IMG/VR virus record: IMGVR_UViG_3300009071_000069
Location: 1 to 24,379 of that record
Length of the DNA: 24,379 bases
Strand: one strand, 5' to 3'
DNA from: a virus
Made by a program: the position numbers and the translations under genes. This document shows positions 15,893 through 20,178 of the stretch, piece by piece (the first letter of the stretch is position 1; every line of letters starts with the position of its first letter). The notes under the pieces were generated by a model. The model was given only the letters and a program-made list of their open reading frames with translations. It did no database searches and was not told the origin of the DNA.

Positions 15893-15900
15893 CATTTATA
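15893..15900 (-). promoter_or_regulatory. Late-promoter-like box TATAAATG for gene 18
   Basis: Minus-strand TATAAATG has one mismatch to TATAAATA and overlaps the stop codon of the sheath-paralogue part B. Expected start is near 15886, giving a ~34-nt leader with an AAGGAGAT ribosome site. It would let the abundant sheath and tube proteins be expressed more strongly than the genes upstream. Confidence 0.55.
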
Positions 15901-17149
15901 TGTTTTCGGTATTTGTGAACCGAATCTTTATGAAGTTGATGGATTTTGTTGGTTTCACTGAAACATCCACGATTAATTGATTGGAATCAATGATATCTGG
16001 AGTATTATTAGATTCGTCGCATGTAATCTGATACTCGGATATACCACCATCTGCTTTTATTTTTCTTAGAAGTTGATTTATCGCTGTTGAAACTTTAGAT
16101 CTAGTTGTCGAGTCATTCTGATCGAATAGAACATCACGAATCGCTTTTCCTATAAGTTTTTTTAATTTCACAAAAAGAAGACTTACATTAATTCTAGAAA
16201 ATGTTGATGTTTCTTCTTTTCTGGTTTTATCCCCAAAAAGAATATACTCTTCTAGATCATCTTCATATTTAACAAAATTAATTCTATTGTTGTATAAATT
16301 TTCTAACCTTTCATTTGTTGGGCTAGGTTGAATATATTCTGCTTTTTTAATAACCCCTCTAGATTGTCCGGCCGGAGATTTGAATTTACCATCTAATATG
16401 GTTCTGGATATACAACCAGATGCATCTACGGAAATTTTAGTGGGAATCAAATAATCATCTCCGTCCCACCTATGAAAATACTTTTCACCGGCCGCCGGGA
16501 ATTCAAATTCATTTGCTGATGTAGCCAAAAAAGATTCTTCTAAAGTTAAATCTGTGTTAACAAATCCATTATTATTTATTTGATTTGCATTTCGATTTGC
16601 GTTTGGATCAGTAAAATCATCAGATCCGCCACCAGCACCATCGCTGGGCCCAGAAAGTATTTCTTTTATGAATAATGTCATACCTGTCGTGTATGCCTTA
16701 CTCCAATCCACCCCTGATTCTGATCCGCTAGTTACTCCTATAAAATCAGAACCCTGAATATTAGTCTCGTAATGTAATCGATGCTTAAATACAGGAAGTT
16801 CATATCTATAAGCATTAAACTTGTATATCCACCAAGAAGGCTGATCCCCATCCACATCGGGTAAATAGTCTGGACCTATGACAGCGACTTGAGTATAAAA
16901 ACTCACTGGTTTAGACAATGTGTAATAGTCTATCATTCTGGAACTATATTTTAGATAATCTCCAACATCTTGCATTCCAAATAGTCTACCATTAGAATAA
17001 AAACTTTCCAACTCTTCAGGAGTTTCTACTTGCTCAGGATTATCTGCACTTTCCCCGACAAACACTCTATTTGCCGCAGTTCTGTAATTTATTCTTGTCA
17101 TGTGAGGAACTGAAACTACATCAGTAAAATTAAATTGAGCAATTGGCAT
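15896..17149 (-). CDS. Sheath-paralogue part B: unknown N-terminal region plus tail-sheath C-terminal domain (417 aa)
   Basis: The C-terminal ~180 residues are clearly a tail sheath domain. Compared with gp18 of this phage: ASGCISRT, then FKSPAGQSRG (near 240-260) against AGCLART, then FSPAGARRG; FGDKTRKEETSTFSRINV (near 303) against FGDKTGAVATSTLSRINV; and the ending CDESNNTPDIIDSNQ, KPTKSINFIKIRFTN against CDETNNTADVIDSNQ, KPTKSVNFVRIRFTN. By eye about half of the positions in this segment are identical. Residues 1-235 are unrecognised and include a Gly/Asn-rich linker near 185-210. I chose the ATG at 17149, which overlaps the previous stop (TAATG) and has GGAG about 8 nt upstream inside that gene; an in-frame ATG at 17194 would overlap 45 nt and lacks this support. 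The complementary halves of A and B suggest one split sheath paralogue made by coupled translation. Confidence 0.78.
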   Translation of the reverse strand: MPIAQFNFTDVVSVPHMTRINYRTAANRVFVGESADNPEQVETPEELESFYSNGRLFGMQDVGDYLKYSSRMIDYYTLSKPVSFYTQVAVIGPDYLPDVDGDQPSWWIYKFNAYRYELPVFKHRLHYETNIQGSDFIGVTSGSESGVDWSKAYTTGMTLFIKEILSGPSDGAGGGSDDFTDPNANRNANQINNNGFVNTDLTLEESFLATSANEFEFPAAGEKYFHRWDGDDYLIPTKISVDASGCISRTILDGKFKSPAGQSRGVIKKAEYIQPSPTNERLENLYNNRINFVKYEDDLEEYILFGDKTRKEETSTFSRINVSLLFVKLKKLIGKAIRDVLFDQNDSTTRSKVSTAINQLLRKIKADGGISEYQITCDESNNTPDIIDSNQLIVDVSVKPTKSINFIKIRFTNTENI

Positions 17150-20100
17150 TAATCGTCTCCCGGTAGTGCTTCGAATTTTATTGACATACCACATGGGTAA
17201 TCAGGTCGAGTTTCTCCTGTATTTGGATTCACATAAAGATAAGGAACTAGATTAAATCCATAACCATATCCCCCAACATATATGTAAGGAACTCTGAAGT
17301 TTGGCCAAACTTGTTCGTTTGCCCTATATGGAGTATACATGTTTGCAAAAGTTCCGCCTCTTGCATAGCCAGGATGTGTATCTTTTGTTGCACCCGTCAA
17401 CCAATCTATAGATCTTCCTAGAAAATCAGTATTTCGCAAACTACTCGGCACTTGGTTTGAATTCGATCCGAATTCCTGTGCAGTTCCACCCATCATTAAA
17501 CCGTTTGTATCTCTATAATCTAGATATAATTCTTCAAAACGATCTTCAAATCCTATAAATGCACAATAGGTACTTCCTTCTGCTGTTACTTGCGCAGTCG
17601 TTTCGTTAGGTCCAAATTCAATACACCTGATCGGGGTATACCCGCTTTCATTAAATTGTTCTACATTTTGTGCATCGGAAAATAAAGAACTTATAGGAAT
17701 GCCTCCGCTTGTTCTTCCTGCTTCAAATACTGTTCTTATAAAATCAGGGAGTTGAGCGCATGTACATCCCCAAAAACGGTGTAACCCATTGTCTCTCTCA
17801 CTGTGAATTTGATATCCAGGCTTTCCCGATTCGTTGGATAGTGTGGATCCATATATGTCAACACCCCACATAAGAGCGGCCGCTCTTTTCTTATACTCAA
17901 GAAAATTTTGCTCTAAAGCGTATGATGCATAATCATTTTTAAGATTCTGCGGCACAGCCTGATTGGTAGGTACTGGAGTTCCATTGCTGTCGTAAAAACC
18001 TTCACCCGTATCGTATCGGTTTGATGGCCATCCATTTATCGAAAAAATTAGTTCATTTAGCGCAAGTCCACCTTCAGAACTAGTTGGTAAAGGAAGTCCG
18101 TTCCCATTTGATTCATAGAAAAATACACCTAAACTCGATTGATTAAAACTAGGATATTGTTTGAGAATATATTGGGTAGTATTATATGAAGATATTGATT
18201 TACTGTCTGCTGGACTAAACACTAGGTCTTCGACTTTACTCGGTCTATTAAGACCCGTTAAATTATATTGTTCCTTTGCTTTTTCGAATGTTTTTCTTAC
18301 ATCCATAAAAAACGGTGTGAACGGTGAATTTCTGTCGTTGTAATTTAAATTTGGACAATCGGTTTTTCCATTAAAACTACTAGAATGTACTGTATTGGTA
18401 TCATCATCATTAAGGTGTCTAGAATCGAAACCATAGAAAGTCTCAATACCCAAGGGCCCGCTTCTTCGAATGACTCCGGCCAAGTAGCCCGTTCCTTCTA
18501 TATTTAGAGATCCTTCCGTACCACGAAGACCTCCGTTTAATCCAGTAGATCCGCATATTCCCTTTACTATATTTCTATACAAAAATGCACTTTCGGTATT
18601 TCCCATAATACCAAGCAATCTTTCACTAAAAGTAGTTCCGGACGCGCCAAAGAATTTCAAGTCTCCCGCAGGATAAAACAAATCTCCGAGTTTAAAATCG
18701 GCTTCTTGTTGATTTTTATTTGGACTGGGCGTTCTTATTATAATTTTTTGTGTCGGTAATAGTGCAGCAAGACTTCCACTAATATTTTCTGTTGTTGCTC
18801 CGAAGAGTTCATATGGAGGAACGAAACCTATCCCATCGAGAAAGGGCCTTATTATACTGTTATTAGTATGAGAACCATCAATTCCAGGTCCAAGGTATGA
18901 TTCGAATCCAATTAAGTCAGAATCAAAGTACACACTTCTAAGAGGTATGTCTGCAAAAGGTAGCATGGTAGTTGCAAGGTGCATATCACCTGTTCCTAAC
19001 CCATAATCAGTTGAAAGTGTAACACCACCAGTATTTGGATTATAATTTCCAACACCGGATGGATATGACATTTTATCAACAGCATTATTATTTTCCCAAT
19101 ATTTAAGATCTGAACTAACTCCATTTATTCCAAATGCACCGCCTGTTAACCATGCATTTACAACCTTAAAGAGAAACGAACCACCAGATACACCCTCTGG
19201 TTTATTAGTTATTCCCGGAGGTAATGTAACACCTGTATTGTCTTTTTCATCCCCTATAATCGTTCCCGCACTTAAAGTTGTTATTGCAATGCAATCTCTT
19301 CTCTGATTTGATATATTTCTTGCTATTTCATTATCTAATCCATTTAAGCATGTTATTGTATCAAAAGAATAATTGCTTGACAAAAGTTTATTTGTAATAG
19401 AATTTGCTTTACTAGCAGTAACACCTTCTAAATCAGGTGCTACAACGATAGCATTTCCTCCATATTCCATAAAATTAAAAATAGACCACCAAAGAGTATC
19501 CCATCCATTAACAGGTCCGAATGGCCATCTAGGGAGATTCTTGTTCGCTAGTTGGTTTCCAAATGTCAACCCCAAAGTATTATAACTATTGGTAATTGTA
19601 GTATCTAAATCAAAAGTTGGATTAAAATTAGAAAATATTTCTGCCGAAGAAGTATTTGACAGAAAATGAAATGTTCTGGCGTTTAGAGTGTTACTAGAAA
19701 TATTGCTGTAATTAAACTGTCTAATATCAAGTGATACATCCAAAGCAGTAGAATTACCTTGCTGTTGATCGTTTATATATGTGGTAGAGGAATCTTGATT
19801 ATTTAATTGCGAATAACCATTTAATATTGGTAAGTAAGATTTTGCGTAGTTATATGACTGTTCCGAATAAGGAACATTTAATTGTTTACTGAGAAATGGT
19901 TGTCTTAAAGTATAATCATACGAAAATATTGTATTTATATCTGTTTCAAAACTTGAAGATGTAATTCCTGTTGGTTCAAAACTAGATAACCTATTTGACC
20001 ATTCTTGCAAACTATTAACAGTTAAAACTCCATCACTTCTTTCACTGGTGTTCCCGACTGCATTAATCAATCCATCAAAGTCGAAAAATACAGTAGTGTG

Positions 20101-20178
20101 TTCTGATGATAATTCTCCGTTTAAATCAACGAAAAATGTATCATCATCTAAACTTGTATTTACATTGGGTAGTGTCAT
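17149..20178 (-). CDS. Sheath-paralogue part A: tail-sheath N-terminal region plus large unknown extension (1009 aa)
   Basis: I do not recognise the whole protein. Its first ~300 residues parallel the N-terminal part of the gp18 encoded at 14587-15852: [17 protein letters not shown] against [34 protein letters not shown] against [36 protein letters not shown] (near 215) against RWPNGPTGEWEQDWWNVHN, and [18 protein letters not shown] (near 280-298) against NNEIATVVGLRNDCVGIV. It carries an extra ~110 residues inside this part (about 75-210). From about 330 to 1009 nothing is recognisable: the sequence is rich in Gly, Asn, Ser and aromatics and ends with a Tyr/Gly-rich segment ([13 protein letters not shown]). 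The sheath C-terminal domain is absent here but present in the next gene. The start overlaps the gene 17 stop (ATGA); the TAA stop overlaps the next ATG (TAATG). No signal peptide or membrane segment is seen. A virion tail component is inferred. Confidence 0.72.

Follow-up and report, generated by a model that had tools for sequence, protein, structure and literature searches.

Two adjacent viral genes resemble complementary halves of an additional tail-sheath protein

Introduction

Sheaths built of two chains are known from type VI secretion systems (T6SS; PMC9230969), in which TssB and TssC (VipA and VipB) assemble 1:1 (PMC5807055). Two copies of the sheath gene occur in some phage genomes (PMC9230969); phage PaBG encodes two complete sheath proteins of ~58 kDa, 38% identical, both of which are in the virion (PMC7412058), and for the virion of Campylobacter phage IBB_35 three gp18 proteins are reported, with the products of genes 1-7 and 1-8 identified by mass spectrometry (PMC3322345). 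Here we describe two adjacent genes, A and B, of an uncultured marine T4-like phage, in IMG/VR virus record IMGVR_UViG_3300009071_000069 (positions 1 to 24,379; this whole stretch of 24,379 nucleotides is referred to as the window). Sequence comparison suggests that A and B are the N-terminal and C-terminal halves of a second tail-sheath protein, encoded immediately ahead of a complete gp18.

The A-B pair resembles gp18 of T4 and of marine T4-like phages (phrog_23; PF04984/PF17482) in both ends of the sheath fold and in its 17-18-19-20 neighborhood; here, however, the gene is a second copy, enlarged by an insert of ~900 residues and cut into two. A and B are two complementary genes that may supply a two-chain sheath subunit of the TssB/TssC kind, but they constitute an accessory paralogue beside a one-piece sheath and carry a large variable insert. 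A Pfam scan at E up to 1 found no TssB or TssC family, returning no match for A and only PF17482 for B. With PaBG the locus shares the presence in one genome of two sheath paralogues that, judging from the tree described below, arose by duplication; neither PaBG protein is split or enlarged, whereas here the second paralogue is split. The Pvc2/3/4 and Afp2/3/4 proteins of extracellular injection systems also place several sheath proteins in one machine, but as separate complete proteins, and we know of no variable cassette among them.

Results

On the minus strand, which carries A and B with all their parts as well as gp17, gp18, and gp19, the window (G+C 36.8%) encodes, in order, neck genes, gp15, gp16, gp17, A, B, gp18, gp19, and gp20, so that A, B, and gp18 together are flanked by gp17 and gp19. 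The window's gp18 (14587..15852) is a complete short tail sheath protein of 421 amino acids (aa), matching phrog_23 (E 1.7e-57) and both PF04984 and PF17482.

Gene A (17149..20178, 1009 aa) provides the N-terminal half of a second sheath together with the bulk of the insert, and has homologues in IMG/VR contigs. Its residues 1-74 (19957..20178; MTLPNV...) correspond to the N-terminal arm and the beginning of the sheath core, gp18 1-75 (BLASTP within the window, as for the other residue ranges of the window's gp18 given here; E 7.9e-7), and are 74-81% identical between divergent alleles. A highly variable first insert follows (A 75-204, 19567..19956; 43-44% identity to contigs L003 and L004), after which the sheath core resumes in A 205-307 (19258..19566) and continues as far as RRDCIAI; gp18 101-194 aligns with A 207-306 (E 1.6e-12), and this part is 84-86% identical between alleles. 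The main insert, A 308-1009 (17152..19257), is without known relatives outside the family formed by A-B and the one-piece proteins described below, and gave no tblastn match among 50,697 phage records. No significant match joins A to the C-terminal half of gp18, such matches having E > 3.

Gene B (15896..17149, 417 aa) supplies the remainder of the insert and the C-terminal half of the sheath. The list of open reading frames gives it as 15896-17194, 432 aa; we place the start at the conserved ATG of the junction with A. The variable portion of the insert occupies B 1-192 (16574..17149; 51-57% identity to L003 and L004), and B 193-417 (15899..16573) is the sheath C-terminal core and arm, running from FGDKT to KPTKSINFIKIRFTN. 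This region matches phrog_23 (E 3.6e-40), PF17482 above its cut-off (E 3.4e-13), and, in a PDB profile search, residues 453-645 of T4 gp18 (E 8.7e-34); B 231-413 is 46% identical to residues 231-413 of the window's gp18 (E 7.6e-49). Matches of B to the N-terminal half of gp18 were likewise not significant (E > 3).

Read one after the other, A and B span gp18 from its first to its last residues, with ~900 extra residues between the halves and ~130 within the first half. Because the sheath parts lie on two genes, separated in the window by the stop and start at 17147-17151, we class A and B as two halves of a sheath paralogue and not as one sheath protein. An earlier note, made from the window's sequence alone, had reported this layout, its landmarks, its location between gp17 and gp18, and the TAATG at which the genes meet, and all of these stand. 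It had also proposed a profile search of both proteins against sheath families, which bears out the assignment for B only: A has no sequence match in PHROG, Pfam, or PDB, and the fold of the insert is thus without a library assignment.

At the junction (17147..17151) the stop codon of A overlaps the start codon of B by one base. The sequence is TAATG in the window and in L002, L004, and L203, and TGATG in L003, and a Shine-Dalgarno-like GGGAG (17157..17161) lies 7 bases ahead of the B start codon, with similar purine-rich sites preceding it in L002, L003, L004, and L203. In all, five divergent A-B pairs, including the much more distant L203, combine the 1-base overlap with a purine-rich site. 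The N-terminus of B, QFNF.DV.SVPHMTRLN, is kept in the window, L002, L003, and L004, and is present in recognizable form in L203. The pair or part of it was found in nine further IMG/VR contigs, of which four contain both genes complete (L001, L002, L003, and L004), two a complete B and a partial A (L203 and L008), and three only a fragment (L017, L102, and L013). Since the split recurs, with a conserved B start, in independent contigs whose A proteins are 64-75% identical and whose junction is the same, it is real, and is neither chance nor a single assembly error. Both genes are under purifying selection: with the near-identical pair L001 left out, A shows a ratio of nonsynonymous to synonymous substitution rates (dN/dS) of 0.19-0.20 and B one of 0.17-0.34.

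A sister lineage of uncultured phages carries both sheath parts on one polypeptide. In L116 (G001), whose gp17 is 79% identical to that of the window, a single gene of 1154 aa occupies the A-B site and is followed by a short gp18. Complete one-piece second sheaths are encoded in L116/L120 (1154 aa) and L200 (1085 aa), and partial ones in L121, L122, L027, and L204. These genes, of 1085-1154 aa as against two genes in the window, fuse A and B in the same order and with the same order of domains between gp17 and gp18, and A plus B is collinear with their profile (hhalign probability 100%, E 1.2e-65, residues 1-1418 on 1-1116). The likeness extends into the insert, where A 802-886 (17521..17775), FWGCTC...VTAEGSTY, is a segment common to A and the one-piece proteins (BLASTP E 7e-9 to L027, and by alignment); we found no relative of this segment in bacterial and archaeal genomes. 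Among the other gp17 relatives retrieved, each of those whose contig includes the next gene has a single sheath gene (395-808 aa) after gp17, and no match covering 80% of the length of the one-piece second sheath was present among the 50,697 deposited phage records. The large one-piece sheath PHROGs phrog_10581, 34521, 17610, and 19666 were considered as fused A-B proteins and rejected; their similarity is confined to the C-terminal core of B and of gp18 and does not extend to any part of A.

In a tree of the C-terminal core, for which B was trimmed since its N-terminal half was misaligned when the whole protein was used, B groups with the one-piece proteins (95/92, or 94/90 with L203 and L200), and the gp18 proteins of both lineages form another group (88/83, or 94/94). 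Because B clusters with the one-piece proteins, apart from the gp18 of either lineage, the tree indicates that gp18 duplicated once and that the long copy was then split in one branch. As gp18 itself is in one piece, we infer that the one-piece state is older than the split. The segment shared by A and the one-piece proteins supports their relationship independently of the tree.

These comparisons strengthen the earlier note's proposal of a translationally coupled, split second paralogue with complementary halves, the one-piece homologues most of all. It had suggested a search of other phage genomes, and the A-B pair was recovered in further IMG/VR contigs; no base error accounts for the two frames; and the homologues in which A and B are not split are fusions of the two, not unrelated single genes.

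The pair is also the site of an abrupt change between otherwise very similar genomes. Compared with the DNA of L003, the window is 95-100% identical from 24379 to ~20600 (neck genes, gp15, gp16, and most of gp17), 50-82% identical from 20180 to 16580 (a stretch that begins with A and ends near B residue 190-230), and 90-98% identical from 16380 onward. Third-codon-position identity for the same two sequences is 98-100% in gp15 and gp16, 30-75% in A and B 1-300, and 92-100% in B 301-417. Because synonymous distance jumps from 0.02 in gp15 to 1.5 in A, we judge that the segment was replaced, not merely selected; on these alignments the insert was exchanged as a block, a cassette, between near-identical phages. 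One border of the cassette lies near the end of gp17; its second border falls within the conserved C-terminal core of the sheath. Family members share 74-86% identity in the sheath parts of A and B and 43-87%, with mostly lower values, in the insert parts, a pattern that suggests, by analogy, exchangeable recognition modules.

Discussion

In sheath structures the N- and C-terminal parts of the protein pack in one core, arms link neighboring subunits, and insertions in the fold tend to face outward. With this in mind we consider it probable that A and B each supply one half of a second tail-sheath protein and together form a composite subunit that displays a variable outer domain. After a duplication in the ancestor of this phage group, one copy of gp18 would have stayed short (~420 aa) and would build the shaft, and the other would have gained an insert of ~900 residues midway through the sheath fold and, in the lineage of the window, been split inside that insert into A and B. 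Ribosomes that terminate on A could restart on B at the TAATG, keeping the two halves in step. A, with the N-terminal arm and core, and B, with the C-terminal core and arm, would then pack as a heterodimer in the manner of TssB and TssC. Retention of both interlocking arms would let the composite take its place in the lattice of gp18 subunits, either as a ring or as a minority along the shaft, and so be part of the virion. The insert would be held outside the tail. Its exchange as a cassette among phages that are otherwise almost the same makes contact with a variable partner most likely, be it a structure on the host surface, a glycan, or a further part of the virion; in other words, the exchange favors an exposed, variable role for A-B.

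Several observations weigh against this interpretation. The structure model of A has a mean predicted local distance difference test (pLDDT) score of 31; that of the one-piece protein averages 46 and is high only in the sheath parts, leaving the insert without a resolved fold. For both models the alignments included gp18 rows, and their fold matches are supporting evidence only. Within that limit, the best-confidence part of A places four sheath chains at ranks 1-4 (Z 7.1-8.2, 103-111 residues), sheath chains being the top fold matches of A 205-307, and sheath chains make up most of the fold matches of the one-piece model; weak as the model is, the better-modeled part of A is thus most like sheath N-terminal domains, as the earlier note expected. 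Searches of PHROG, Pfam, and PDB revealed no recognizable binding domain in the insert. The grouping of B with the one-piece proteins joins two long branches and may be false. Finally, mosaicism is not unique to A-B: relative to L004, gp19 falls to 63-77% identity while gp18 remains at ~94%.

An alternative is that A-B forms a specialized terminal ring of the sheath, at the baseplate or the neck, in which the insert makes a fixed structural contact and not a contact with the host. Extra sheath paralogues are known from the solved PVC and Afp structures (Pvc3, Pvc4, Afp3, and Afp4 chains are among our profile and fold matches), and a bulky protein suits a minor part. A structural contact would, however, be expected to co-vary with its partners; here only the insert has been exchanged, and the neck genes, gp15, and the gp18 side retain 95-100% identity. 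We regard this possibility as unlikely, though it is a serious competitor. It is improbable that A-B substitutes for gp18 in some virions, giving plain and decorated alternative shafts. A-B retains both arms of the sheath mesh, and the PaBG virion contains two complete sheath proteins (PMC7412058), but the sequence offers nothing for either/or use, no regulatory switch having been seen in it, and a subunit as large as ~1430 residues would add great bulk to every ring.

The remaining alternatives concern the junction itself. In favor of production of A and B as one fused chain by ribosomal frameshifting, the frame of B is -1 relative to A and is open for 7-27 codons upstream of the ATG. We reject this very improbable reading, since no slippery heptamer is common to the junctions (the window, L002, and L003 have none) and the start codon, the purine-rich site, and the B product from its first residues are all conserved. 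Least credible of all is a broken second sheath, either a decaying pseudogene or an assembly error of the kind suggested by the S-ShM2 record, and it is rejected because independent contigs share the junction and both genes are under purifying selection. In the published record of the cyanophage S-ShM2 (GU071096, L014:7001-10996) gp17 and gp18 are each annotated as two pieces, but both are single genes in S-RIM14 (KX349302) of the same species, which is the pattern of an error; the S-ShM2 record probably carries frame errors.

The earlier note knew of no described split sheath, which is too strong a statement given the two chains of T6SS sheaths and the Campylobacter phages IBB_35 (HM246720; L205:4504-7809) and CP220 (FN667788; L206:48293-50000), in which gp18 is encoded as an N-terminal piece with immunoglobulin-like (Ig-like) domains and a C-terminal piece (phrog_20545 and phrog_23). 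The adjacent IBB_35 genes 1-7 and 1-8 match T4 gp18 residues 2-88, followed by the Ig-like domains, and 223-645. According to PMC3322345 both IBB_35 halves are virion proteins, a precedent for the two parts of such a sheath entering the particle. The break in the Campylobacter phages falls between T4 gp18 residues 88 and 223 and not beside the C-terminal core, the sheath match of B beginning at T4 residue 453, and the insert is unrelated. By this comparison the IBB_35 sheath has been split too, independently of A-B, and the searched passages of PMC3322345 apparently do not describe it in those terms. In open-access papers we found no description of a split phage sheath as such. Split sheaths are known in T6SS and appear to have gone unremarked in Campylobacter phages, and A-B adds a second sheath paralogue split inside an insert.

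At this locus a contractile sheath gene has duplicated, grown, and then divided; its one-piece and two-piece states both survive at the same place in related genomes, and the origin of two-chain sheaths such as those of type VI secretion becomes open to direct comparison. More tentatively, and with less confidence than in the composite subunit itself, we raise the possibility that the tail sheath is a variable surface organ, its heterodimeric subunit displaying an adhesin or shield of ~900 residues that phages exchange through recombination within the conserved core of the sheath, much as they exchange the tips of tail fibers. If so, a phage may use the tail shaft as well as its fibers for contact with the outside. 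Were the insert an adhesin, host recognition would not be limited to fibers and baseplate, and host prediction in marine phage genomes would have to consider sheath genes.

The neighbors of the locus were assigned by library match: gp17, the terminase large subunit, lies upstream of A (20175..21827), and gp19, the tail tube protein, lies downstream of gp18 (14007..14567). At window positions 14000-14400, gp19 is a second mosaic spot in the comparison with L004 and is followed by a 99% identical block at the gp19-gp20 junction, which is a likely recombination point. A second tail-tube-like protein (7577-8140; phrog_45 E 1.3e-21) is encoded between the capsid gene and uvsY and is possibly a tube terminator of the gp3 type. 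In a related lineage two overlapping tail-tube (gp19-like) genes stand in tandem after gp18 (L085:4074-5122, and also in L084 and L089).
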